Under the pieces are notes generated by a model, which ran no database searches, was not told the DNA's origin, and saw only the letters and a program-made list of their open reading frames with translations. Positions 5,660-20,540 of a stretch of 39,613 bases of DNA are shown piece by piece. The DNA lies in assembly GCA_947463705.1 (NCBI GenBank), contig CANHSO010000005.1, positions 1-39,613 of the forward strand. Reading direction: 5' to 3'. Source of the DNA: Bacteriovoracaceae bacterium (GTDB lineage: Bacteria; Bdellovibrionota; UBA1018). Within the stretch, counting starts at the first letter, position 1. Each line of letters begins with the position of its first letter. Position numbers and translations under genes: made by a program.

Positions 5660-5695
5660 AGAAGCATAGTATATACTAGTATATACTATGCTTCT
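5660..5695. promoter_or_regulatory. 36-bp perfect palindrome, putative autoregulatory operator of the NTase/RHH module
   Basis: AGAAGCATAGTATATACT/AGTATATACTATGCTTCT is its own reverse complement; contains two tandem copies of palindromic AGTATATACT; includes ATG at 5688. Confidence 0.8.
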
Positions 5696-6167
5696 CACAA
5701 GACTGATCCAAGCTTTAGCCACTCGAAACATTCCCTACGCCCTAGTAGGTGGTTATGCTGTAGCCCTCCATGGCGCCGTAAGAGGAACTGTAGACATTGA
5801 CCTAGTGATTCAGTTCAAAGAAGGCGACTTTATCGAAACTGAACAGGCTTTACACGAACTTGGACTAGAATCGCGACTCCCTCTGCACGGGGCCCAAGTT
5901 TATAAGTTCAGAAAAGAGTATTTGGAGAATCGAAATTTAATTGCCTGGAATTTTTACAATCCGAAAAAGCCGAGTGAACAAGTTGACATCATCCTCACTC
6001 AAAATCTCAGCGCAATTCAAGTGGTCACCGTTCAATTTCACTCATTTAAAATCAAAATTGCATCAATTCCAGACTTGATCAAAATGAAGCAAGCCTCCGG
6101 CAGACCACAAGACCTGGCCGACGTTGAATCCTTGCGCGAACTAATAAAACTGAGGAAATCGAAATGA
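5688..6167 (+). CDS. Nucleotidyltransferase-like protein (MNT/AbiEii-type), candidate toxin
   Basis: 159-aa ORF with YALVGGYAVALHGAVRGTVDIDLVI (GG..A..G..R.T.DID nucleotidyltransferase signature) and a second acidic motif QVDIIL. Confidence 0.82.
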   Translation: MLLTRLIQALATRNIPYALVGGYAVALHGAVRGTVDIDLVIQFKEGDFIETEQALHELGLESRLPLHGAQVYKFRKEYLENRNLIAWNFYNPKKPSEQVDIILTQNLSAIQVVTVQFHSFKIKIASIPDLIKMKQASGRPQDLADVESLRELIKLRKSK

Positions 6168-6466
6168 AGAAAACCGTGCAATACCTCACACCAGAATACC
6201 TAGAGCGCGCAAGCAAAATGAGCACAGTAGAAATCGTTCAATTTCTGGAGGATTTTAGAAAACTTCATGCCGAGGCCGAAACAAATCGCAACGCAAAGTC
6301 TAGATTGATCAGCATCAAGATCCCTGAAAATCTTCTCAATACATTTAAGACTGCTGCCGAACTCGAAGGCATCAAATATCAAACTCTGATTAAAAAAATC
6401 ATGAGAGATTGGTTAAGTTCTCAATCGATCGGCAAACAAAACTTGGCAAAAAGAAACGAAAATTAA
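6164..6466 (+). CDS. Ribbon-helix-helix-like small protein, candidate antitoxin/repressor
   Basis: 100-aa ORF overlapping the NTase gene by ATGA; SRLISIKIPENLLNTFKTAAELEGIKYQTLIKKIMRDWL resembles a CopG/BrnA-type RHH fold. Confidence 0.7.
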   Translation: MKKTVQYLTPEYLERASKMSTVEIVQFLEDFRKLHAEAETNRNAKSRLISIKIPENLLNTFKTAAELEGIKYQTLIKKIMRDWLSSQSIGKQNLAKRNEN

Positions 6467-6476
6467 CCATTTCGAT

Positions 6477-8498
6477 CTAAGGCAGAACAACGCGAATCAA
6501 CCCGCGATAGGCGCCTTTTGCGCTCGGATCGACCGTATTCATCCCTTTGAAAAACACATCTTCACTCACCCAATAAGGCTCATACCACTCACGATCGGGG
6601 TCGAGAACCAGGACCCGTTGATTCTCAGAATCATAGGCTCCCACGGGGGCGAAATGACCGACAGGCGCATCTCCGGTGTAAACTCCCTGAACGAAATTTG
6701 CGATGAGGAACACCTTCGGATTTTTCTCCATCTCCACTAGAATTTGGTGAATTTTTGCCCGCGATTCTGGATTTGCATGAATCATTTCAACCCATTTTGG
6801 CTTTGCATCGTAACCCGCAAGACCCGAGGTGAGGTAGCCCCCAAGGTCATCCAGGAGAACACCCCTCCCCATAAGACCTACCGAGAACCGCCACGCTGTA
6901 CTTTTCGAGTTTTTAATCACCTGAGCCTCGGTTGCCAGAGGCTCATCGGCTCTTAGGGCATGCCCGACTCGAGCTGCATTCACGACCATAGTAGCAGCCG
7001 CAACTGAGCATGAGCTTCCGGTCTGTTGAGGTGCATAATAAGGAATCAGGGCCCAAAACTGAGGAGCATCGTGACCCTTGAAATACTCATGCGACACGGA
7101 GAGAGGCATCGCATCTGGGCCATACTTTGGTTTTTGAGTTTGGACTTTTGCTGGAGCCACCTTGGACTGGGTAAGCACAACTCCAGCACTGGCTTGCGGA
7201 GTTGGCGTTTGGGCGAAACTCTGCGAAGAAACCATCGAGAATGACGCTATTAGAAGCAAAACCACACCAAGGCCTCGGAGTGCCTGAATTCTCTGTAAAA
7301 CTGGAGGATGAGAGTACTCCAAAACTACTTTCATCGGATGAGGATTAAGATGAGAGAGATGATCCACACTCATTTTTTTCAACGCTGAAACAAGAGCCTC
7401 GGGTTTACCGTAGGCCTCACGGGCGAAACGATCTGCTTCGAACTCATTCCTGCGAGATCTCCAGAGGGCCAGCACGGAAACCAGCCTGAGCACGGGCCCA
7501 GCGGCGCTACTTAGCAAGACAAGACTTGCGTAGATTGAGGTTGAATCCATTTTAAATGCTGCGAACAAATCAGGCCGATTGAGAAAAAGAGAAAACACGT
7601 AAAATAGGACCCCAGAGGATAAGACAGAAACGACCATCGATTGCTGAATATGTTTTTTCTCATAATGGCCAATTTCGTGAGCTAGCACTGCCACCAGTTC
7701 ATCCAAAGACTGATTTTGAATCAACGTATCAAAAAGGACCAATCTTCTCAGCTTACCAAACCCAGTAAAAAATGCGTTCGACTTAGTGGAGCGTTTAGAA
7801 CTATCCATCGTAAAAATTCCGCTCAACTTAAACTTGCGCTGAGCTGCAAAAATCTCAATCGCACGCTTCAGATCACCCTCGGGCAAGGGCTCAAACTTGT
7901 TAAATAAAGGCAAAATCAGTGCGGGAGCTAAATACGTCACCCCCACCTGAAACACAGTGAGAGCAAACCAAGCGTAAAGCCATGCAAGCGGCCCGGCGTT
8001 TTCAAAAAAATAAATCAGTCCCGCAAAGATCGGTGCACCCAGAAGCGCACTCAAAACTAGACCTTTGAACAAATCAGCAACAAAGGTTTGAGGCGTGGTA
8101 CGATTAAACCCATACCTGGCCTCGATCCCAAAGGTCGAGTAGACGGAAAATGGGAGCTGAATCACAAACCGAAGCGCAGAAATCAAAGCAACAAAAATGA
8201 TCCCAGTACCCACCGAGCCCAGCTCAAATTGCCTTGCCCATTGATCCGCCCAGTTCCACCCTCCGGCGAGCAAAAAACCTGCAAAGACCCCAAAACTCAT
8301 GGCCCGATGCAAAATCTCGAAGCGCGTTACTTCAGTCTGATACTGCAGCGATTTTCGGTACTTTTCGGAGTCGTAAATCCCTTGGAACTCAGCGGGAAGA
8401 TCTGACCTGAGTCGGCTCAAATTTAAAACATCTGCAACCGTTTCAGTCAGAAAAACCAAGCCAAACAATCCCAAAATCAACTCAGTAGTCAGTCCCAT
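6477..8498 (-). CDS. M48 (Ste24/CAAX-protease-like) metallopeptidase fused to a C-terminal phytochelatin-synthase-like cysteine peptidase domain
   Basis: 673-aa ORF: AVLAHEIGHYEKKH (HExxH) with multiple TM segments; after ~residue 410 a hydrophobic segment (LGVVLLLIASFSMVSSQSFAQ), then PYYAPQQTGSSCSVAAATMVVN, GHFAPVGAYD and VLVLDPDREWYEPYWV. Confidence 0.88.
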   Translation of the reverse strand: MGLTTELILGLFGLVFLTETVADVLNLSRLRSDLPAEFQGIYDSEKYRKSLQYQTEVTRFEILHRAMSFGVFAGFLLAGGWNWADQWARQFELGSVGTGIIFVALISALRFVIQLPFSVYSTFGIEARYGFNRTTPQTFVADLFKGLVLSALLGAPIFAGLIYFFENAGPLAWLYAWFALTVFQVGVTYLAPALILPLFNKFEPLPEGDLKRAIEIFAAQRKFKLSGIFTMDSSKRSTKSNAFFTGFGKLRRLVLFDTLIQNQSLDELVAVLAHEIGHYEKKHIQQSMVVSVLSSGVLFYVFSLFLNRPDLFAAFKMDSTSIYASLVLLSSAAGPVLRLVSVLALWRSRRNEFEADRFAREAYGKPEALVSALKKMSVDHLSHLNPHPMKVVLEYSHPPVLQRIQALRGLGVVLLLIASFSMVSSQSFAQTPTPQASAGVVLTQSKVAPAKVQTQKPKYGPDAMPLSVSHEYFKGHDAPQFWALIPYYAPQQTGSSCSVAAATMVVNAARVGHALRADEPLATEAQVIKNSKSTAWRFSVGLMGRGVLLDDLGGYLTSGLAGYDAKPKWVEMIHANPESRAKIHQILVEMEKNPKVFLIANFVQGVYTGDAPVGHFAPVGAYDSENQRVLVLDPDREWYEPYWVSEDVFFKGMNTVDPSAKGAYRGLIRVVLP

Positions 8499-8614
8499 AG
8501 CTCTGCCTCCAGCAAAGTTTTACTCAAAGAACAGCTTAGACCGTCAGTTCTAGCTTTGCTATTTCATTTTGGCTTTGCTATAGATGAAAACTGACTTGCT
8601 TGCCGCACACTCAC

Positions 8615-8705
8615 GGAGAGATGGCCGAGTGGCCGAAGGCACTCCCTTGCTAAGGGAGCATACGCCAAAAGCGTATCGAGAGTTCGAATCTCTCTCTCTC
8701 CGCCA
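8615..8705 (+). tRNA. tRNA-Ser (anticodon GCT), CCA encoded
   Basis: GGAGAGA/TCTCTCC acceptor stem, anticodon arm CTCCCTTGCTAAGGGAG, long variable arm TACGCCAAAAGCGTA, T arm GAGAGTTCGAATCTCTC, GCCA 3' end. Confidence 0.95.
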
Positions 8706-8757: not shown

Positions 8758-9969
8758 CTAAACTTTAAATTCCCAACCTGATTTCTGCACAGTCTTGATC
8801 TTCATATTCCGCGCCTTTAGGTATTCAAAAAATAGGAGCGGCGGTACCGCGATCTCAGCAGGTAAAGCCCCGCGCTCCGTGATTTCGCCCCTGGCAAGCA
8901 TCTGCGCAGCGATCGAGGGAGGACTCCCGGTGTCGATGTCCAGGCCGATTCCCCACTGCGGCATTCCGGCTGTGTGACACTCATGAATGAGCGTCACTTT
9001 TTTGCGACCCAAAGTACCCTTAACGACAGCTCGAACCACCTCATATTGATTCAACTTTCCGACCTGTTTTGGCGCAGGCTGTGACATTGCAACCCGATTG
9101 ATGACGTCAATTGGGCGAGCTTTTCCTCCTCCGGGCAAGGTAATCCATTCGTGGGACGCCATGCCCAAATCTCGAAGGAAACGAACACGATCGATAAATT
9201 CTGGGTCGAAGGCAATCTTAAAACTCACCTCCTGGACCCCCTGTCTCTTGAACGAGAGTGGAAGCGTCGCAACTTCTGAGTGAATCGTATACATGGGATG
9301 CCTAAGACCAATTGGTGCAGGAAATCGATGAGGTGTCGCTCCTGACATCGGAGCAACAAACTTGAACTTGCCCTTCGTGAAAACGGCAGGCTCAAAAGAA
9401 AACTCCTCTAAAATAGTCTGAAGCGAATAAGAAAGGGCAAGAGCAGGCTGAGTGCGATAGCGCGTTGCATCCATCGAGCCCACGCGAAGGTGAATTTCCT
9501 TTATAGTATCGAGCCGATCAGAAGCATGCCGAGCTAAAATATTTGTAATTCCCGGGGCAGCACCCATCCCCAAGAGAGCCGTTTTCCCAATTGCCTTAAA
9601 TCGACTGTCCCACTCGAGTTGCTGGCGGGTGACATGAAAGAGTCCACCAAGGTCAATGTAGTGAGATGAAATGGCCAAGGCAATCGCCATGACATCCAAG
9701 TTGAGCGAATATTGAGCGGCGTTAATCAGAACAAACGAACCTGCAAGAAGCTTCTGAGATTCGGCCTGATTCTTAACATCCACTCGAATCGCTCGAACGC
9801 GTGGATCCCTGAACTGTTCAGCCAGTGCCGAAGCCTGCTTCAGATCGTAATCTGCGATGAGAATCTCTACATTGCGAGAGGGCAGCGTTTCAACCAGGTC
9901 GCGAACCGTAATTCGCCCCATAGCACCCGCTCCCCCCACAACCGCGTATCGAATCAGATTTTCACTCAA
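8758..9969 (-). CDS. Saccharopine dehydrogenase family NAD(P)-binding protein
   Basis: 403-aa ORF; N-terminal VVGGAGAMGRITVRDL Rossmann motif, YIDLGGLFHVTRQQ, GMGAAPGITNILARHA. Confidence 0.85.
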   Translation of the reverse strand: MSENLIRYAVVGGAGAMGRITVRDLVETLPSRNVEILIADYDLKQASALAEQFRDPRVRAIRVDVKNQAESQKLLAGSFVLINAAQYSLNLDVMAIALAISSHYIDLGGLFHVTRQQLEWDSRFKAIGKTALLGMGAAPGITNILARHASDRLDTIKEIHLRVGSMDATRYRTQPALALSYSLQTILEEFSFEPAVFTKGKFKFVAPMSGATPHRFPAPIGLRHPMYTIHSEVATLPLSFKRQGVQEVSFKIAFDPEFIDRVRFLRDLGMASHEWITLPGGGKARPIDVINRVAMSQPAPKQVGKLNQYEVVRAVVKGTLGRKKVTLIHECHTAGMPQWGIGLDIDTGSPPSIAAQMLARGEITERGALPAEIAVPPLLFFEYLKARNMKIKTVQKSGWEFKV

Positions 9970-11492
9970 GAATTTGACTCCTTTTTTGAGGGAATTTTTC
10001 TTTGTCCGTAGGGAAACCAGTAAGACTTCTTTTCAGCAATATAATCGAGATGAACGTGTTTGGGCTCGCGAAACGCATCAAGCCCTTCTTCTCCGAGTTC
10101 ACGTCCAATCCCACTCCACCGCATTCCGCCAAAAGGAGCGGCATCATTGTCCGTAAGGGGGTCATTGATCCAAAAAGTTCCAGCCTTAATATTTTCCATC
10201 GCTCTCATCGAGACTTCAAGATTATTTGTGTAGATACAAGCTCCAAGCCCGTACTTGGAATCGTTGGCCATTTCGATCATCTCATCTGCATTTTCAGCCA
10301 CAGTAATCGAAAAGACGGGACCAAAGATCTCCTCCCGCGTAGGACTCGAACCGTGCTTAACATCACTCAAGATCGTAGGCTCAAAAAAATAACCCGGAAG
10401 GCCTTGTGGCTGAAATCGACTCCCGCCCAGAAGAAGCGTTGCTCCCTCTTGAATGGCCGCTTTCACTTGTGATTCAACTTTTTTCACCGCCTCTGCAGAG
10501 ATCAATGGGCCGATGTCAGTGTTCGGGTTCGATGGATCCCCAACTTGCAGAGTCTTTACGTGAGCAGAGAGTCGGTCAATAAACTCCTCCGCGATGGGGC
10601 GCTCTAAGTAAATACGCTTACTTGAAGTACAAACTTGCCCTGCATTGAGAAGTCTGGCCCAGGCTACGCCTGGGACCGCAATATCCAGGTTCGCATCTTT
10701 AAAAACTAGAAATGGATCGACAGAGCCCAACTCAAGATTCACTTTCTTGAGCTGACTCCCAGCCACTGCAGCAATCCTTCGACCGACCTGTGTAGAACCA
10801 GTAAACGCAATGAGGTCGATCTCATCGTGGTGAATCAACAACTCACCGGTATTTTCACCCCCTGTAATCACATTCACCACACCAGGTGGCAGCACCCCTT
10901 CATAAGCCCGAGCCATCATGAGATTAGTCAGCGGATTTTGATGAGGAGCTTTACAAACGACTGTATTGCCTGCAGCCAACGCTGGAGCAACTTTCCATGC
11001 CATCAATAGAAGAGGAAAATTGAACGGGACAATTGCTGCGACAACGCCATAGGGTTCTTTAATGGTAAAGTTAATCTGGTGCGGAGCCACAGGGGGAATG
11101 GATTTTCCATAGCTCGATCGGGCTACTTCAGCATAATACTCAAATGCTGCTGCCACCCAATCGATGCAATCTACCGACTCACACAAGGGCTTACCCGTCT
11201 CCTTGGTCATCATACGAGACAGATCGTGTTCCATCTCTCGAACGCGCCGCCCCACCTCTCTGAGGAGTTTAGCTTTTTCAACTCCAGGCACTTTCCACCA
11301 ACTCTGCTGAGCGCTACGAGCTGAAAGAACTGCAGCGTTAACATCGTCTTGGCTGCAATCTGCTGCAGTGCCCAAAAGCTCTAATGTGGCAGGATTTCGA
11401 ATCTCCCTGAGATGAGAAGATTGAGGCGTCACCCAATTTCCATGAATCAGAATCGTTTGCGGTAGATTGCTATCTTTCGACTTTTTGAGCAT
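9966..11492 (-). CDS. Aldehyde dehydrogenase family protein
   Basis: 508-aa ORF; VPFNFPLLLMAWKVAPALAAGNTVVCKAP, FTGSTQVGR, catalytic Cys in NAGQVCTSSKR, EEIFGPVFS. Confidence 0.92.
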   Translation of the reverse strand: MLKKSKDSNLPQTILIHGNWVTPQSSHLREIRNPATLELLGTAADCSQDDVNAAVLSARSAQQSWWKVPGVEKAKLLREVGRRVREMEHDLSRMMTKETGKPLCESVDCIDWVAAAFEYYAEVARSSYGKSIPPVAPHQINFTIKEPYGVVAAIVPFNFPLLLMAWKVAPALAAGNTVVCKAPHQNPLTNLMMARAYEGVLPPGVVNVITGGENTGELLIHHDEIDLIAFTGSTQVGRRIAAVAGSQLKKVNLELGSVDPFLVFKDANLDIAVPGVAWARLLNAGQVCTSSKRIYLERPIAEEFIDRLSAHVKTLQVGDPSNPNTDIGPLISAEAVKKVESQVKAAIQEGATLLLGGSRFQPQGLPGYFFEPTILSDVKHGSSPTREEIFGPVFSITVAENADEMIEMANDSKYGLGACIYTNNLEVSMRAMENIKAGTFWINDPLTDNDAAPFGGMRWSGIGRELGEEGLDAFREPKHVHLDYIAEKKSYWFPYGQRKIPSKKESNS

Positions 11493-11621
11493 GAGTTTCC
11501 TTGTATTTCATCTTAGATTCTCAAGTAGCAGAAAGTAGACTCTTTGTTAGGGTCTACTATTTTCAATAACATATTCCCAAATGACTTGGTTGGGAAGTTT
11601 TATGGAAAGGCCGCATCCAGA

Positions 11622-13064
11622 ATGATTCTCAAATCAGTCTTTCGAGCTCTCGCAATTTTCGTCTATTTTTCCAGCCTCGCTCTCGCACAGTTACCTCAAA
11701 AAACAGACGTTCTCATTATTGGTGCAGGACTCAGCGGTTTAGCAACAGCCTATCAGCTCAAAAAAGCAGGTATTCCTTATCACCTGGTCGAACTCACTCC
11801 ACGGGTCGGGGGAAGGGTCCGAACTGTGACGTACGAGACTGCGGGACAAGTCACACTTCACGCAGATTCGGGAATGGAGGAATACTGGGAAAGCAATCCC
11901 GCGGTAAAAATCCTAAAGGAACTCAAACTCCCCTTGAAGGTAGAAAGTTCAGCATCGAGCGTCGTTCTCAACCAAAAACTCGAGACTCTGGGACAAAAGG
12001 AGTCGGTAGAGGACTTTCTAACACGCATCTTCACACCTGCTGAAAAGGCCGCATTCGACTCGTTCCGGGCACAAGTCAGTCCTATGATTCAACGCATGAA
12101 CGGGCCACATCCCCTCCCAAAAGAGCTCATGAACCTCAAAGACATCGCATTGTCTCAATGGGTTCTTCAGCAAAACCTACCCAAGAGAGTATCCGAGTGG
12201 ATTCGGATCTCTGTCGAGTGCGAGATCGGAACACAGTGGGAGCAACTCTCTGCTTTGGATGGAATCTCTGAATTTCACATTTTTCTAGGAAAGGGAGAGG
12301 CGAGCTATCGGGTCATCGGCGGAAATGAGCGTTTTACTCAGGCGCTCACAAAATACATCAATCCTCACCGGATCAGTCTCAATGAAAGGGTGACTCGAAT
12401 AGAAAGCAAGAAAAGCCGGATTTTGATATCCGTATTAAACCAGGTCACTCATCAGAACCGGAGAATTGAAGCGAAGGCGGTGGTCAGTACAATACCTCTG
12501 TATCGCCTTTCAGAACTCCAATTTGATCCGCCGCTCTCAGAGAGAAAATGGGAAGCCATCAAAACTCAAACCTGGGGTTCATACTTTAAAGCTCACGTGT
12601 TCGTTTCTCGAAAGTCCGACCGACTTCAAACTAAAAAAGCGACAGAAGCGCTGCCGATCCTCTCAGACTCGGATTTAGGCGTGATCTACGATGGCAACCC
12701 GGATCAAAACACCGATACTAAGATTCTTTCGCTCCTGATTACTGGTTATCATGCTGAGAAATTTACGATGATGCCACTGGACGAGGTAAAAAAACAAATC
12801 GCGTCCGCTTTTGAACAACTTTGGCCCGGCTTTTCAAAGGACATTCAGAGTGTGGAATTTTATCGATATCACCCGCGAGCCATTGCCGGCTGGCCGGTGG
12901 GACGCTCTCGCTTCGACGAGCTCTCAGATGAGCTCAGGATACCCGAAAATCACATTTATCTTGCTGGTGATTTTACAGAGGGAACTCACTCCAGTGGCGC
13001 ATTTAAATCCGCAACCCGAGTGGCGCAACAACTGATCGCGCTCCTCAAAGGAGGACGAAGATGA
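11622..13064 (+). CDS. Flavin-dependent amine oxidase, putatively exported (upstream start at 11544 possible)
   Basis: TDVLIIGAGLSGLATAYQLKKAGIPYHLVELTPRVGGRVRT FAD-binding motif; C-terminal IYLAGDFTEGTHSSGAFKSATR; start at 11622 gives a signal peptide MILKSVFRALAIFVYFSSLALAQ. Confidence 0.88.
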   Translation: MILKSVFRALAIFVYFSSLALAQLPQKTDVLIIGAGLSGLATAYQLKKAGIPYHLVELTPRVGGRVRTVTYETAGQVTLHADSGMEEYWESNPAVKILKELKLPLKVESSASSVVLNQKLETLGQKESVEDFLTRIFTPAEKAAFDSFRAQVSPMIQRMNGPHPLPKELMNLKDIALSQWVLQQNLPKRVSEWIRISVECEIGTQWEQLSALDGISEFHIFLGKGEASYRVIGGNERFTQALTKYINPHRISLNERVTRIESKKSRILISVLNQVTHQNRRIEAKAVVSTIPLYRLSELQFDPPLSERKWEAIKTQTWGSYFKAHVFVSRKSDRLQTKKATEALPILSDSDLGVIYDGNPDQNTDTKILSLLITGYHAEKFTMMPLDEVKKQIASAFEQLWPGFSKDIQSVEFYRYHPRAIAGWPVGRSRFDELSDELRIPENHIYLAGDFTEGTHSSGAFKSATRVAQQLIALLKGGRR

Positions 13065-13313
13065 TCCCTGCATCCTCGCCTCTCTGATCGAAGCCAAAAT
13101 AATCCGGAAGCGACAACCCGAAATTCCCAATGGATCGGGTTCGCTCTGATTGCCCTAGTCCTTTGGGCAGGATCTCAAACCTTGGTGAAGTACTCATATA
13201 GTTTCCCCCAGGCCAGCGAAGTGAACTTAGCTCTCTGCAATACGGTTGGGGGCGCCCTGACTCTCGGAGTCTATATATTAGTTGGAATGTATTTAGCTAG
13301 TGCACCAACCTAA
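13065..13313 (+). pseudogene. In-frame 82-codon extension after the amine oxidase TGA, two predicted TM segments; remnant transporter N-terminus or readthrough tail
   Basis: Same frame as the amine oxidase, no ATG/GTG/TTG near its start: SLHPRLSDRSQNNPEATTRNSQWIGFALIALVLWAGSQTLVKYSYSFPQASEVNLALCNTVGGALTLGVYILVGMYLASAPT*; resembles the first part of an EamA/DMT half. Confidence 0.45.
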
Positions 13314-13331
13314 TCGAAAGATCAGGAAACC

Positions 13332-13347
13332 AAACCATTTATGGTTT
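13332..13347. promoter_or_regulatory. Short dyad AAACCAT-TT-ATGGTTT upstream of aldehyde dehydrogenase
   Basis: 7-bp perfect inverted repeat adjacent to TATGAT (13347-13352), 35 nt before the ATG at 13382. Confidence 0.35.
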
Positions 13348-13381
13348 ATGATAGACTACACGAAGATCAGGAGGATCTAAA

Positions 13382-14866
13382 ATGGCGAAGCTAAACCCTA
13401 TAAAGTCCTATCAGATGTGGATCAACGGAAAATGGGTTGCAGCGCTATCGGGTGCCACTCGCGAAATCACAGATCCAGGGAATGGAGATCTGATTGCTCG
13501 AGTACCAGAAGCTGGACCGAAAGACGTGGCGCTCGCAATTGATGCAGCTCGTCAGGCTTTTGACGCCGGTCCGTGGAGAAAGACCTCAGCTCTCGATCGA
13601 GGAAAATACCTCTTTAAAATTGCAGATGCCATCCGACGCGAAGGTCAATTTTTGGCCGAGCTTGAGGTTCGTAATTGTGGAAAGCCCCTCGCTGAGGCCG
13701 AGTTCGATGTCGCTGATGCGGCCAATTGCTTTGAGTTTTACGGAGGATTAGCGACCAAAATCCATGGGGAAACCATGAGCGTCCCCGCCAATTCGATTAG
13801 CTATGTGGTGCGCGAGCCGGTCGGAGTTTGCGGCCAGATCATCCCTTGGAACTACCCACTGATGATGGCCGCCTGGAAGCTTGCTCCTGCCCTCGCAGCT
13901 GGAAATGTTTGTGTCCTCAAACCCTCCGAGCTCACTCCAATCACTGCTCTCGAGCTTGCACGGATCATCGAAACCGTCGGCCTACCTCCAGGCGTGGTGA
14001 ATATCATCACAGGACCTGGCGCAGGGGCTGGCGAGGAACTCGCATCCAATCCGAAGGTGGATAAGATTGCATTCACGGGCGGCACGGTCACCGGCCGAAA
14101 AATTATGGTTGCAGCCAGTTCCAACCTCAAAAAAATATCGCTTGAGTTGGGAGGGAAAAATCCAAACATTGTTTTTGCCGATGCCGATTTTGAAGCAGCT
14201 GTAGACGGAGCACTGTTTGGAGCGTTTGCCAATCAAGGTGAGGTCTGCTCAGCAGGATCTCGCCTTTTGATTGAAAAGTCGATCCACGCAGACTTTGTAG
14301 CAGCTCTGATCAAGAAAGTTCCTCGAGTTAAGTTGGGCCACGGACTCACCCCAGGGGTAAAAATGGGGGCTCTGATCTCGGCAGATCACCTAAAAAAGGT
14401 GGAGAATTATATTAAAATTGGAATTTCTGAGGGCGCAAAGCTCGTCTGTGGCGGCCGGCGACCTATGGGTGCAGAATTCGAAAAAGGAAACTTTCTTGAA
14501 CCCACGATTTTTGACCACGTGACACCCCAAATGCGTGTTGGAAGAGAGGAAATATTTGGTCCGGTCCTCTCGATTATTCCCTTCGAAAGCGAGTCACAGG
14601 CGATTCAGATTGCTAACGATACTGAGTATGGCTTGGCAGCAGGAGTGTGGACCAAGAACGTGAATCGAGGACTACGAGTGATTCATAGTATCCGTGCCGG
14701 AATCACCTGGCTCAACACCTACCACCCCACTTTTAATGAAATGCCGTGGGGCGGATATAAGCAAAGCGGAATCGGTCGGGAGCTTGGACTTCATGGCATC
14801 GAAGCCTACCTAGAGATTAAGCAGGTCAATATCAACCTCGATGAAACACCGATTGGATGGTACTAA
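13382..14866 (+). CDS. Aldehyde dehydrogenase (betaine-aldehyde/aminoaldehyde-type)
   Basis: 494-aa ORF; PWNYPLMMAAWKLAPALAAGN, FTGGTVTGRKIM, SLELGGKNPNIVFADAD, NQGEVCSAGSRL; GGAGG-type RBS upstream. Confidence 0.95.
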   Translation: MAKLNPIKSYQMWINGKWVAALSGATREITDPGNGDLIARVPEAGPKDVALAIDAARQAFDAGPWRKTSALDRGKYLFKIADAIRREGQFLAELEVRNCGKPLAEAEFDVADAANCFEFYGGLATKIHGETMSVPANSISYVVREPVGVCGQIIPWNYPLMMAAWKLAPALAAGNVCVLKPSELTPITALELARIIETVGLPPGVVNIITGPGAGAGEELASNPKVDKIAFTGGTVTGRKIMVAASSNLKKISLELGGKNPNIVFADADFEAAVDGALFGAFANQGEVCSAGSRLLIEKSIHADFVAALIKKVPRVKLGHGLTPGVKMGALISADHLKKVENYIKIGISEGAKLVCGGRRPMGAEFEKGNFLEPTIFDHVTPQMRVGREEIFGPVLSIIPFESESQAIQIANDTEYGLAAGVWTKNVNRGLRVIHSIRAGITWLNTYHPTFNEMPWGGYKQSGIGRELGLHGIEAYLEIKQVNINLDETPIGWY

Positions 14867-14867
14867 T

Positions 14868-16196
14868 ATGGCAATTTCTCTAAAGACTTCGTTGCCTGGG
14901 CCCAATTCTCTCGCACTCATGAAGGAGCGCAAATCTCAGGTCGCCAGGGGACCCTTTCATACGACTCCCATCTTTGCATCCAGCGCCAGGGGAGCCTTGG
15001 TCCATGATGTAGATGGGAACACCCTGATTGACCTCGCCTGTGGCATTGGCGTAACTAATGTCGGACACGCCCCTGATACGCTCGTCCAAGCGATTCAACT
15101 CCAGGCAAGCCAGATGCTCCACACCAGTTTTAATGTTTTGCCCTATCGACAGTATATTGAAGTCGCCACGGCACTCAATCAATCCACACCAGGATCGTTT
15201 CCAAAAAAAACCTTACTCGTCAATAGCGGTGCAGAAGCCGTTGAGAATGCGGTCAAAATTGCCCGTGCCTTCACGAAACGTCCGTCCTTGATTTGTTTTG
15301 AGCACGGCTACCATGGACGCACTTACATGGCGATGACCCTCACATCGAAGGTCAAACCCTATCGCCAAGACTTTGGGCCTTTTAACTCAGAGGTTTATCG
15401 AGCACCCTTTCCCTACGCCTATCGCTGGCCGAACACCTCTGATCCTGAGCGAGTGTCTAGGGAATGCTTTCATCGTTTTGAGGAAATCGTAAACCATCAG
15501 GTGGGTGCAGCTAATACAGCGGCCGTCATCATCGAGCCTGTCTTGGGTGAAGGTGGATTCGTCCCAGCGCCAAAAACCTTCATGACACTTCTCAGAGAGT
15601 ACTGCACCGCTCATGGCATTGTTCTGATTGCAGACGAGATTCAAACTGGATTTGGACGCACTGGGACCTTATTTGCGTGTGAACAGCTAGATATCACTCC
15701 GGACTTAATCACCTCTGCCAAGGGACTTGCTGGAGGTCTCCCCCTAGCTGCAGTGACTGGGCGGGCCGAGATGATGGATGCACCCATGGAAGGGGGAATT
15801 GGGGGTACGTACGGAGGAAACCCTGTTGCATGCGCGTCCGCTCTGGCTGTTTTTCAGATGTTTCAAGATGGCACACTCCTTCTTCGTGCGAGAGAACTTG
15901 GTAAGCGAATCGAAACTCGCCTGGACCAATGGAAGTCTCAATTCCCGATCATCGGAGACGTCAGGGGACTAGGCCCCATGCGGGCATTGGAGCTGGTTAA
16001 GGATCGAACGACTCAAGAACCAGATCGGGACTCTACTGCAGCCCTCATTCAATATTGCTACAAAAATGGGGTGGTCATATTAAGTGCGGGCACTTATGGA
16101 AACGTAGTTCGTCTCCTCGTTCCACTCGTCATCCAAGATGCTGAGTTGAATGAGGCACTCAATGTCATTGAAGCGGGCTTGAGTTCTTTATCATGA
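14868..16196 (+). CDS. Class III (aspartate/GABA/ornithine-like) aminotransferase
   Basis: ORF annotated from 14841; start at 14868 avoids overlap. LIDLACGIGVTNVGH, VNSGAEAVENAVKIAR, LIADEIQTGFGRTG, TSAKGLAGGLPLAAVTGR (PLP lysine). Confidence 0.92.
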   Translation: MAISLKTSLPGPNSLALMKERKSQVARGPFHTTPIFASSARGALVHDVDGNTLIDLACGIGVTNVGHAPDTLVQAIQLQASQMLHTSFNVLPYRQYIEVATALNQSTPGSFPKKTLLVNSGAEAVENAVKIARAFTKRPSLICFEHGYHGRTYMAMTLTSKVKPYRQDFGPFNSEVYRAPFPYAYRWPNTSDPERVSRECFHRFEEIVNHQVGAANTAAVIIEPVLGEGGFVPAPKTFMTLLREYCTAHGIVLIADEIQTGFGRTGTLFACEQLDITPDLITSAKGLAGGLPLAAVTGRAEMMDAPMEGGIGGTYGGNPVACASALAVFQMFQDGTLLLRARELGKRIETRLDQWKSQFPIIGDVRGLGPMRALELVKDRTTQEPDRDSTAALIQYCYKNGVVILSAGTYGNVVRLLVPLVIQDAELNEALNVIEAGLSSLS

Positions 16197-16229
16197 ACGC
16201 CTAAAAAACGCTTGAATGAGCCCTGAATA

Positions 16230-16925
16230 CTAAGCCTTACAATCCTGGCGGCGATAGGCAATATACCGATGAAAAATCCAGTACACTCCGAGTGCCATGA
16301 GAAATCCAGCTATTACATCAACCATATAGTGCTGCTTAGTTGTCAGCGTAGAAACTGCAATCAGGGAACTCCAGATAAAAAAGTATGGAAATTTTTGTCT
16401 CTGATCGTCGAGAAAAATAAACGATGAGAGATACACACTACTCACGTGAAGGCTCGGACAACAGTTAGCAGCAGTATCGGCGGCCCTGAGCGAACTAAAA
16501 ACAAAAAAAGTAAGAGGATCAAGATCACTCGACAGTGGAAAAAGCTCGCGAGGGTAAGTAGTTGGCCAAATGATAAAGATCAAAACACTGAGAGACTGAA
16601 GAAAAAGAAAAGAATAAAAGTATTTATTCAAATTATTTAGATCGCGACTCGAAAAATACACTGCTGGAAAAAAAATATACTCGCTAATGTAGAGCCAAAC
16701 AGACCAGGGTAAAAATGGAACCGCCTCATCAATCCACCAGAATGGCAAAATACGAGGAGGAAACACGTGAAAATGATTCGAACCGACATAGAGCGCAGTA
16801 GCAATCACCGCCAGCCATAGGCCGACTCTGCCCTTATTCTCAGCGCTAATGAAGATTGGCAGAGACAGTCCAGAGAAAAAGTTTTTAATTTGAGCGGGTG
16901 TATAAGAAATCACTGACTTAGCCAC
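16230..16925 (-). CDS. PAP2-superfamily membrane phosphatase/phosphotransferase-like protein
   Basis: 231-aa multi-TM ORF; ANCCPSLHVSSVYLSSF and TKQHYMVDVIAG resemble PAP2 motifs 2 and 3. Confidence 0.82.
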   Translation of the reverse strand: MAKSVISYTPAQIKNFFSGLSLPIFISAENKGRVGLWLAVIATALYVGSNHFHVFPPRILPFWWIDEAVPFLPWSVWLYISEYIFFPAVYFSSRDLNNLNKYFYSFLFLQSLSVLIFIIWPTTYPRELFPLSSDLDPLTFFVFSSLRAADTAANCCPSLHVSSVYLSSFIFLDDQRQKFPYFFIWSSLIAVSTLTTKQHYMVDVIAGFLMALGVYWIFHRYIAYRRQDCKA

Positions 16926-17509
16926 CGCTGCACTTGTCCGATACTTTCTTGAGAAAACCAGTCCTTACCCCCCTCTTTGAGATCGAGCACTTTTCGATTC
17001 TGATTAAAAACGATGGTGGATGGAATAGCGTGCACATCAAAAAGATCGGCCACTTTGCCATCACTGTCTTTCAGCAGTGGAAATTCGATTTTGAGCTTGG
17101 CTCGAGTCCGCTCAATAGCAGAGTCAGGATTTTCGTCTAAATTGACCCCAATGACCTCGAAGCCCTGACCATGAAAGCGGTCTCTGAGCTTGGCAAAGCT
17201 GGGCATTTCCTCCATACAGGCTTCGCACCAGGTCGCCCAAAAATTCAGCACAACAACTTTAGCGTGCAAATCAGAAACCGAAATCACTCGATTCTCTGGC
17301 GATGAGAGAAGTGTAAAATCAGGCAGAACACTCCCCACCTTGATCTCAATTTGACTCGGAGCTTCAGAGTTGGAGTGCAAACTCTGCTGATTGAGAGCGA
17401 CCACTTTGAGTGCAACCAGCGCGATTGCAACTGTCGCCAAAACAATGACGATGGGCATAAGCGCTTTTTTCAGGCTAATTTTTGAATTTTGTTGGTTCGA
17501 AGCTGTCAT
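16910..17509 (-). CDS. TlpA/ResA-like thioredoxin-fold thiol-disulfide protein, membrane anchored
   Basis: VVVLNFWATWCEACMEEMPSFAKLRDRF (WCxxC) after an N-terminal TM; ORF track starts at 17569, but ATG ending at 17509 has AGAGGA RBS and avoids overlap with the divergent ORF. Confidence 0.9.
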   Translation of the reverse strand: MTASNQQNSKISLKKALMPIVIVLATVAIALVALKVVALNQQSLHSNSEAPSQIEIKVGSVLPDFTLLSSPENRVISVSDLHAKVVVLNFWATWCEACMEEMPSFAKLRDRFHGQGFEVIGVNLDENPDSAIERTRAKLKIEFPLLKDSDGKVADLFDVHAIPSTIVFNQNRKVLDLKEGGKDWFSQESIGQVQRWLSQ

Positions 17510-17539
17510 AGCAGGTCCTCTCATTATATACTGAAACAG

Positions 17540-17746
17540 ATGAACAAAGCTAGAAAAAGCAGAAATCAATTAGGTCAAGCGCTGGTTGAGTATATCCTAG
17601 TCCTAGCAGTAACCATTGCATTAGCAGCCACATTCGGAAATAGCATTAGAACTGCCATATTGGGACTTTGGACCTACATCACTCGAAGTGTCACTGCGGC
17701 TTGCCCAACGGGCTGTCCTGCCAACCCAGCTTATCGCCTGCGCTAG
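17540..17746 (+). CDS. Flp-type (class III prepilin-like) small pilin
   Basis: 68-aa MNKARKSRNQLGQALVEYILVLAVTIALAATFGNSIRTAILG...; G|QALVEY has prepilin-peptidase cleavage Gly and Glu at +5 followed by a hydrophobic helix. Confidence 0.7.
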   Translation: MNKARKSRNQLGQALVEYILVLAVTIALAATFGNSIRTAILGLWTYITRSVTAACPTGCPANPAYRLR

Positions 17747-17768
17747 TAAAAAGTCGAGCAAAGCTCTA

Positions 17769-18995
17769 CTACCAGGCAAATCGGTAATAAACTTCTTCAA
17801 ATTTCTGAAAGGGAAGAATCCAAAAATTGGCATCCAAGCCTGGTTCAAGCGTCCCCTTAGATGCTGACAAACCCAAGGCGCGAGCTCCATTGTAGGTCAC
17901 AGCAGCAAAGATCTCAGCACGTGTCATCCCCAAATAAAGAGCTGCTATCGTCATCACAGACGGGAGAGACAAGCCCATAAAAGTGCCTGGGTTAAAATCC
18001 GTTGCCAGGGCCACCCTGACACCTTGGTTCAGAAGCTTCCGTGCCGGCGCTTGAGCCGCCTTAAGGTAGAAAGCAGTACCTGGAAGCAGAACCGCAACGA
18101 CCTCTGAACAAGAGAGACTTTGCACTCCTCGATCCGAGACCCGGAGCAGATGGTCTGCTGAGAGCGCCCCCAGCTCTGCCGCCAGAGAGGCTGATTCAGT
18201 ATTATTCAACTCATCGGCATGGATTTTAGTTCTGAAGCCCATCCTCTTGGCTGCTCCAAGAATTTCGCGTCCTTCATCGCAAGTAAAATAGCCCTCGTCG
18301 ATGAATACATCGCAGGCATCCGCTAACCGTTTTTTCTGAATCTCAGGTAAAGTACGATGAATCATCTCTTGAATGTAGTCGCGTCGATCCCGACCTTGCG
18401 GTATTGCGTGCGCTCCCATGTAGGTCGCGGTCAAGGTCATCTGAGGAAACTTTTTTTTCAGCAGAGCAATGGCTCTGAGACTTTTCATTTCAGACTCAAA
18501 ATCAAGCCCATACCCACTCTTAATCTCAACCGTTCGAACTCCGCGACGATAAATTTCTTTTAACCGCTCAGCCCCCAGCTTAACCAACTGGGCCTCGCTC
18601 GATGCACGAGTCGCTTGGACCGTACTTAGGATGCCACCGCCCCTTTTTGAAATTTCTTCATAAGTTGCACCGGCACAGCGCGCGGAGAACTCCTCTGAAC
18701 GATCTCCGTCAAAGATGAGATGAGTATGACAATCGACGAGACCAGGAATCACTGCTTTTTTTCCTCGAAGATCTAAGTGAGGGATTTTTTTCCACCGCTT
18801 CGGAAGTTCTTCTGTGCTCCCCACCCACTCAATTCGATCCGGGACTTCATATCGCCCCACTTTTTTGGTCCGGTAAACCAAAGCTCCATCTGGGATGCGC
18901 CCAAGATCTTCGTCAGTCACCCGCACGCCGTCTTTTATTCGAACTCCAGCACCCGTGAGTAATTCACTTGCATGAGTAATTACCTTAAACGACAC
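17769..18995 (-). CDS. hutI: Imidazolonepropionase
   Basis: 408-aa ORF; VIPGLVDCHTHLIFDGDRSEEFSARCAGATYEEI, GGGILSTVQATR, EIKSGYGLD, LATDFNPGT; next to hutH. Confidence 0.95.
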   Translation of the reverse strand: MSFKVITHASELLTGAGVRIKDGVRVTDEDLGRIPDGALVYRTKKVGRYEVPDRIEWVGSTEELPKRWKKIPHLDLRGKKAVIPGLVDCHTHLIFDGDRSEEFSARCAGATYEEISKRGGGILSTVQATRASSEAQLVKLGAERLKEIYRRGVRTVEIKSGYGLDFESEMKSLRAIALLKKKFPQMTLTATYMGAHAIPQGRDRRDYIQEMIHRTLPEIQKKRLADACDVFIDEGYFTCDEGREILGAAKRMGFRTKIHADELNNTESASLAAELGALSADHLLRVSDRGVQSLSCSEVVAVLLPGTAFYLKAAQAPARKLLNQGVRVALATDFNPGTFMGLSLPSVMTIAALYLGMTRAEIFAAVTYNGARALGLSASKGTLEPGLDANFWILPFQKFEEVYYRFAW

Positions 18996-19004
18996 CGGGA
19001 CCTC

Positions 19005-20540
19005 TCAGTTTGAACTCACGCTTTGGATGATTTGGAGCATTTCATCAGAGTTCATCATTTCTAAAACTGCACCAAAGTCTTCCGAGAAAGGACGATCGCC
19101 ATCCAGGCGCTTGATTCTGCGTCGAATCATGTGGTGAACTTTCTCCAAAGGCTCGGTGCTTCTCAAGGGACGCAAAAGGTCCACCCCCTGTGCAGCCGCG
19201 AGCAACTCAAGGGAAAGTACACGTTGTGAGTTCGCAATAACCATTCCAGCTTTTCTCGCTGCCCAAGCCCCCATACTCACGTGATCTTCCTTGTCAGCAC
19301 TGGTCGGAATTGAATCAACGCTGGCCGGGTGACAAAGCGTTTTATTCTCAGAAACCAAACTTGCTGCAGTCACTTGAACAATCATAAAGCCACTATTCAA
19401 ACCGCCTTGGACGGTCAAAAATGCAGGCAAACCAGAGGTTGCTGGGTTCACTAGTTTTTCAAGTCTTTGTTCGGAAATGCTTGCAAGCTCCGCCGCAGCG
19501 ATCGAGAGCATGTCCATCGCGTTAGCCAGAATCTGACCGTGAAAATTACCCCCATTCAGAATTTTTCCCTCTTCAGGAAAAATCAGCGGATTATCAGTGA
19601 CTGAGTTCACCTCACGCTCTAATACCTGACGCACAAAAGTCAGAATATCGCGAGACGCTCCGTGCACCTGGGGAATACATCGAAGACTATAAGGATCTTG
19701 AACTCGATTACAGTCCTCATGGCTTTTTCCAATTTCGCTCCTCTGGCCCCTTGGAGTGAGCCACTTGAGGACATTTTCAGCGACTTGAGCTTGGCCGGGA
19801 TGAGGTCTTACTCGATGGATCGCTGGATCAAATGCTGCTGGCGTACCTCGAAGGGCCTCCACTGACATTGCCCCGATCAAATCAGCCAAGTCAGCAAGGC
19901 GCTCCGCCTTCAAAAGATGGAGAGTCCCTAGGGCCGCCATAAACTGAGTGCCATTAATGAGAGCAAGCCCCTCTTTAGGACCTAGGCGAATCGGTTGTAT
20001 CCCTGCTGCCTTAAGTGCCTGAGCCCCGCTCATCTCTTGCCCACGAAACCGAGCACGTCCCTCTCCAATTAACGGCAATGCTAAATGAGACAAAGGAGCT
20101 AAATCACCGCTTGCTCCGACCGAGCCCTGTTCAGGAACGACGGGAATCACACCCCGGTTCAGCAGGAGTAAAATCTGCTCAACTAGCTGTAGACTAACTC
20201 CAGAATGCCCAATGGACAAACTGGCGGCCCTGAGTACCAGCATGGCGCGAACTGCGGCATCTGGAAGTGCCGCACCTACACCACACGCATGCGATCGAAG
20301 TAAATTGTGTTGAAGCGACTCGAGATCAGCGGATGATATACGAACGTGAGAGAGAAGTCCAAAACCAGTATTCACGCCATAATAAGTTTCGCCCGTCAGA
20401 AGTCGAGACTTCAAAAATTCATGTGCTGCTTGAATTTTTGCTCTGGCTTGAGCAGAAAGATCAACTTGTTTCTGATTGACTGCAACCTGGAAAATATCTT
20501 CAAGTGTGAGTGGCTGTGCACCCAAATGCAATGTTTCCAT
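19005..20540 (-). CDS. hutH: Histidine ammonia-lyase
   Basis: 511-aa ORF; YGVNTGFG, GSVGASGDLAPLSHLALPLIGEG (ASG MIO motif), QDPYSLRCIPQVHGA. Confidence 0.97.
   Translation of the reverse strand: METLHLGAQPLTLEDIFQVAVNQKQVDLSAQARAKIQAAHEFLKSRLLTGETYYGVNTGFGLLSHVRISSADLESLQHNLLRSHACGVGAALPDAAVRAMLVLRAASLSIGHSGVSLQLVEQILLLLNRGVIPVVPEQGSVGASGDLAPLSHLALPLIGEGRARFRGQEMSGAQALKAAGIQPIRLGPKEGLALINGTQFMAALGTLHLLKAERLADLADLIGAMSVEALRGTPAAFDPAIHRVRPHPGQAQVAENVLKWLTPRGQRSEIGKSHEDCNRVQDPYSLRCIPQVHGASRDILTFVRQVLEREVNSVTDNPLIFPEEGKILNGGNFHGQILANAMDMLSIAAAELASISEQRLEKLVNPATSGLPAFLTVQGGLNSGFMIVQVTAASLVSENKTLCHPASVDSIPTSADKEDHVSMGAWAARKAGMVIANSQRVLSLELLAAAQGVDLLRPLRSTEPLEKVHHMIRRRIKRLDGDRPFSEDFGAVLEMMNSDEMLQIIQSVSSN

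Follow-up and report, generated by a model that had tools for sequence, protein, structure and literature searches.

A Ste24-type M48 protease joined in frame to a phytochelatin-synthase-like domain in one genus of Bdellovibrionota: a candidate polyprotein with an internal signal peptide

The fusion gene and its surroundings

The stretch of DNA analyzed here (the window, 39,613 nucleotides) carries an open reading frame on its minus strand that runs from an ATG start at 8498 to 6477, stop included. The features of this gene and of its upstream flank are as follows.

6477..8498, minus strand: fusion ORF of 673 aa, made of a Ste24/M48 protease, a signal-peptide-like segment, a linker and a phytochelatin-synthase-like (PCS-like) domain
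8506..8510, minus strand: Shine-Dalgarno GGAGG of the fusion gene, 7 nt before the ATG (-9.3 kcal/mol against the anti-Shine-Dalgarno)
7896..8423, minus strand: PF16491 (Peptidase_M48_N), aa 26-201, with five N-terminal membrane helices (E 5.2e-53)
7272..7886, minus strand: PF01435 (Peptidase_M48) catalytic domain, aa 205-409 (E 2.1e-34)
7665..7679, minus strand: HEIGH zinc motif (HExxH), aa 274-278; the third-ligand motif NEFEAD is present as well
7212..7277, minus strand: signal-peptide-like segment R408-A429 (RGLGVVLLLIASFSMVSSQSFA), predicted eighth membrane segment
7119..7211, minus strand: low-complexity linker, aa 430-460 (pLDDT ~52)
6501..7067, minus strand: PF05023 phytochelatin synthase domain, aa 478-666 (E 3e-20)
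7008..7010, minus strand: codon of the catalytic Cys497, invariant in 27 sequences and aligned to the catalytic Cys of Alr0975
6654..6656, minus strand: codon of the catalytic His615 (GHFAP), invariant in 27 and aligned to GHISP of Alr0975
6600..6602, minus strand: codon of the catalytic Asp633 (LDPDR), invariant in 27 and aligned to IMDVSR of Alr0975
8615..8705, plus strand: tRNA-Ser(GCT), divergently upstream, which adjoins the fusion gene in the two other genomes of the genus too

An earlier note on this DNA had described an uninterrupted 673-codon frame with an M48 protease ending at HPPVLQRIQAL, a hydrophobic stretch and a Cys/His/Asp set, and all these elements are present: HEIGH, HPPVLQRIQAL (aa 397-407), the hydrophobic stretch (aa 409-429), Cys497, His615 and Asp633. 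Its assignment of the two halves to M48 and PF05023 has held in an HMM search, in which PF16491, PF01435 and PF05023 all exceed the Pfam gathering cut-offs. PF05023 scores 72.8 bits against a cut-off of 24.9, with an E-value of 2.7e-21 when the C-terminal half alone is the query. Peptidase C39 (PF13529, C39_2) remains under its cut-off of 24, at 18.5 bits with the whole protein and 22.3 bits with the C-terminal half. The M48-PCS fusion is a new domain architecture built from two known families; the pairing was found neither outside the genus in this analysis nor in the literature searched, which agrees with the remark in the earlier note that it was not known as a described architecture.

Two overlapping small genes on the plus strand (5688-6466) converge on the fusion gene. 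They encode a nucleotidyltransferase (DUF6036, with a weak AbiEii-like match) and a CopG-type antitoxin, and look like a small toxin-antitoxin-like pair. At 8758-11492 (minus strand) and 11544-20540 lie saccharopine dehydrogenase-like and aldehyde dehydrogenase genes, with a 4-base overlap, and near these are genes for a further aldehyde dehydrogenase, a class III aminotransferase, an amine oxidase and an aromatic amino acid lyase, which suggests an amino-acid or amine catabolism neighborhood. No gene neighborhood shared with genomes outside the genus was found.

Conservation and selection within the genus

The genus was sampled by three genomes, namely that of the window (G000) and two others (G001 and G002; records CANCQK010000005.1, a Bdellovibrionales metagenome-assembled genome, and CAINWE010000001.1, an Oligoflexia metagenome-assembled genome). 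G001 and G002 also have an uninterrupted fusion frame, with open frames of 680 and 694 aa, although the G002 copy ends at a contig end nine residues short of the C-terminus of the window protein. Over the two parts of the protein, the genus-mates are 93-98% and 68-69% identical to the window sequence. The stop or frameshift near 7260-7290 that would have split the gene in two is absent, the frame being open through the join in all three assemblies. Since no stop breaks it in three separate assemblies, chance or a frameshift is ruled out as its origin.

Between G000 and G001, dN/dS amounts to 0.09 for the protease, 0.31 for the signal-like segment, about 0.65 for the linker and 0.135 for the PCS-like domain. 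Relative to G002, synonymous sites are saturated, yet the frame remains open, and pN of the signal-like segment is about 0.61. The dN/dS values indicate that each half has been kept by selection while fused; as judged from these substitution rates, both halves are under purifying selection. The fusion is a real, conserved and genus-restricted architecture.

The protease half

In an alignment of 28 M48 proteins, H274, E275, H278, E352 and D356 are invariant. Searched against the PDB with phmmer, the M48 part matches ZMPSTE24 (5syt/4aw6) with an E-value of 1e-57 and yeast Ste24p (4il3) with 4e-52. By family models and motifs, it is a Ste24-type M48 protease, with predicted Zn-dependent activity.

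The PCS-like half

A profile of 27 C-terminal domains searched against the PDB (hmmsearch) had Alr0975 of Nostoc as its sole match (E 1e-34), and the Cys, His and Asp positions of the two line up; the C/H/D triad proposed earlier therefore stands by alignment, C497/H615/D633 corresponding to the known triad of Alr0975. The expected PF05023-type fold was also recovered by structure prediction: the model of the C-terminal domain (pLDDT 87.9) is papain-like, as in Alr0975, and its nine best structural matches in Foldseek are all Alr0975 entries, with E-values from 4.5e-16 (6tho) to 4e-14. As only three alignment rows cover the C-terminal half, the model of the whole fusion has pLDDT < 50 there. 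A mixed alignment of both halves appeared misaligned and was left out of the results.

Cys497 is the only cysteine in the C-terminal half, and a single Cys is also found in nearly all relatives' catalytic domains. The PCS of Nostoc likewise has a single Cys, and its activity is independent of added thiols (PMC3561135). This enzyme, NsPCS, splits glutathione into gamma-glutamylcysteine and glycine (PMC12065762), and for short PCS proteins of this type a role in glutathione metabolism rather than in metal chelation has been argued (PMC11314372). By analogy, the PCS-like domain likely cleaves glutathione, or glutathione-like peptides or conjugates, to gamma-Glu-Cys and Gly.

As for a source of the substrate, a strong GshB-like match is found in G000 and G002, and a GshA match (PF08886) in G002 only among the three incomplete genomes of the genus. 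In these incomplete assemblies, PF04262 was not found in G000, and searches of the three genomes gave no PF04107 match. Each of the three does carry a gamma-glutamyltranspeptidase, the G000 copy being partial. With this gene content, the bacteria of the genus may make glutathione or may act on that of other cells.

The join and the predicted topology

In relatives, the stand-alone proteases stop 0 to about 11 aa past HPPVLxRIxAL, apart from a few longer, distant ones, and the stand-alone PCS-like proteins mostly have an N-terminal signal peptide. The fused protease is complete to RIQALR and the hydrophobic core follows directly, in the place occupied by the signal peptides of the stand-alone relatives. 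The ends of these relatives thus uphold the earlier proposal that a formerly stand-alone secreted enzyme was joined in frame to the protease C-terminus. As both the protease C-terminus and the signal peptide of its partner are whole, nothing functional was lost on either side.

By inspection, a charged n-region, a hydrophobic core and S/A-x-A are present at the join in all three species. The segment ends in SSQSFA|Q in G000 and G001 and in TVAFA|A in G002; in the window protein, the signal-peptidase-I-like site (S-F-A|Q) falls after A429. The S/A-x-A at the segment end is kept in both lineages although segment and linker diverge.

Hydropathy analysis of G002 gives seven hydrophobic segments before the signal-like one, with K+R counts in the successive loops, from the N-terminus to TM8, of 0/5/1/4/0/14/1/9. 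In G000, helix 2 falls below the hydropathy cut-off of 1.5 and the remaining segments agree with G002. Under the positive-inside rule, these alternating loop charges place the protease C-terminus in the cytoplasm, so that the next segment leads outward. The predicted topology comprises seven M48 helices, a cytoplasmic catalytic domain and an exported PCS-like domain.

Distribution and origin

Among 55 genomes of the order, 40 have PCS-like matches at E <= 1e-25, while a frame long enough to take in the protease occurs only in the three members of the genus. Neither fusion nor adjacency was found in the 52 other genomes of the order or in the 78 other named loci, the named loci being the best 80 among 84,980 species genomes; within those 80, only the two genus-mates have an M48 gene within 3 kb of the PCS-like gene. 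In relatives where both genes could be placed, they lie on different contigs or, in one genome (G037), about 98 kb apart. The comparison with relatives suggested in the earlier note thus yields separate, non-adjacent genes outside the genus and the fusion within it. An ancestor with adjacent but separate genes was considered and rejected, as a two-gene intermediate is not seen: adjacency is absent from the other named loci and the genes are distant from each other in the relatives' genomes. A 492-aa open frame in another locus (L006) was considered as a second fusion and set aside, since what lies upstream in it is something other than M48 and the PCS-like gene begins at an ATG of its own.

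Phylogenetic analysis of the PCS-like domain groups the three fused copies in a single clade (SH-aLRT 100), which makes one fusion event the simplest history; the tree does not resolve the closest stand-alone relative or donor lineage of that clade. The best explanation of these data is a single fusion, in the ancestor of the genus, of a complete Ste24-type (M48) inner-membrane protease with the complete precursor of a periplasmic PCS-like enzyme, signal peptide included.

PCS-like genes of this type occur in many Legionella and Azospirillum genomes (L090, L098, L101, L104, L107, L113-L114, L118-L144). Two stand-alone PCS-like proteins (L005:1444-2262 and L026:1384-2241) have lipobox-like signal peptides (GLFSC and LVLGC), a motif which suggests that such forms may be membrane-anchored in some relatives.

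Fate of the fusion protein

The reading that we consider the most probable, with modest confidence, is that this single-origin joining of a complete protease and a complete precursor yields a polyprotein cut at the retained signal peptide. The terminal arginine of the protease, R408, would supply the old signal peptide with its positive n-region, and this peptide would insert as an eighth segment in the orientation of the ancestral signal peptide, so that the C-terminal domain is exported. Signal peptidase I would then cut after A429 (SFA|Q; AFA|A in G002). This step is the less certain one; it is inferred from motif and charge, and SPase-like motifs are short. The products would be a membrane protease and a soluble periplasmic PCS-like enzyme in 1:1 amounts.

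Alternatively, and with distinctly lower probability, the fusion may stay uncut, with the PCS-like domain anchored permanently at the periplasmic side of the protease by the old signal peptide, now an eighth transmembrane helix. The hydrophobicity of the segment is sufficient for a helix (1.93 in G000 and 2.08 in G002, 19-residue Kyte-Doolittle), the predicted topology fits, and the lipoprotein-like appearance of L005 and L026 argues that membrane attachment is tolerated in the family. However, S/A-x-A after the hydrophobic core has been kept in both lineages despite fast divergence, and a pure anchor would not need it. The tethering put forward in the earlier note is thus one possibility: with a signal-peptidase-I-type site preserved in the fused signal peptide of all three species, the likelihood of release is no lower.

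It is rather improbable that translation of the PCS-like enzyme begins inside the protease gene, close to its end, with nested in-frame starts and an incidental read-through frame. Each lineage does have a TTG at or in the segment with above-average Shine-Dalgarno pairing. In G002, the TTG lies at ALR; AAAGGA (-5.4 kcal/mol) precedes it, and the residues after it make up a well-formed signal peptide (MRVVALFGILFSTVAFA|A). G000 and G001 share a TTG at codon 414, with GAGG upstream (-5.9/-6.6 kcal/mol). However, these candidates are not at homologous positions, the pairing values are just 1-2 s.d. above background, and the best placed candidate of G000, GTG 412, is GTA in G001. A start at 414 would moreover leave a signal peptide without a positive n-region, with GAGG 13 nt away, and all three species lack a stop before the PCS-like domain. 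A conserved internal start, proposed earlier as a check, was sought around the segment in the three genomes of the genus and was not found, although a weak one may exist. The region showed neither a conserved promoter nor a sigma-70-like site.

Finally, the two named genus-mates are known from metagenome-assembled genomes, and the genome of the window is split into 173 contigs. A sequencing or assembly artefact that joins two genes can nevertheless be rejected with near certainty, as two further genomes have the same fusion: the join recurs unchanged across the three separate assemblies, at 68% identity in one of them, and beside the same tRNA-Ser.

Returning to the polyprotein, the selective reason for the fusion is probably that one polypeptide delivers both enzymes. 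More tentatively, it might be a genus-specific two-enzyme polyprotein whose PCS-like glutathione peptidase is released or displayed, the two enzymes being coupled in peptide or thiol handling in the envelope. The locus offers a clean case of a fusion that preserves both parent genes in full, and a candidate for a bacterial polyprotein that is divided at an internal signal peptide. Exported PCS-like enzymes are common in Bdellovibrio relatives, Legionella and Azospirillum, and if the two domains truly cooperate, the fusion would give a first hint of the role of such enzymes in the cell envelope.

Comparison with known systems

The protease half resembles Ste24/ZMPSTE24, the CAAX prenyl protease 1 (MEROPS M48A), in its family architecture (PF16491 and PF01435), its HExxH and ExxxD motifs and its seven-helix layout. 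Unlike these proteins, the fusion continues past the normal C-terminus with a signal-peptide-like segment and then another enzyme. The PCS-like half shares its predicted fold, Cys-His-Asp triad and single cysteine with Alr0975/NsPCS, the primitive phytochelatin synthase of Nostoc (PF05023), and both are short 'half-PCS' proteins that lack the eukaryotic C-terminal domain. In contrast, identity is ~25%, and the fused domain is the C-terminal part of a membrane protease, whereas Alr0975 stands alone. Closer in sequence are the stand-alone exported PCS-like proteins of Bdellovibrionota, Legionella and Azospirillum, with 35-52% identity over the domain and a triad invariant in the 27 aligned sequences; unlike the fusion, they are encoded by separate genes that do not adjoin M48.

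The nearest known mechanistic precedent is FbcH, the bacterial cytochrome b-c1 precursor of Bradyrhizobium, in which a multi-pass membrane protein is followed by a second protein's signal peptide and exported domain, and which is processed at this internal signal sequence. The fusion protein is like FbcH in layout, with an internal signal peptide and then an exported domain, its own processing being predicted. The parts of FbcH are subunits of one respiratory complex, whereas the fusion unites two enzymes without a known joint pathway.
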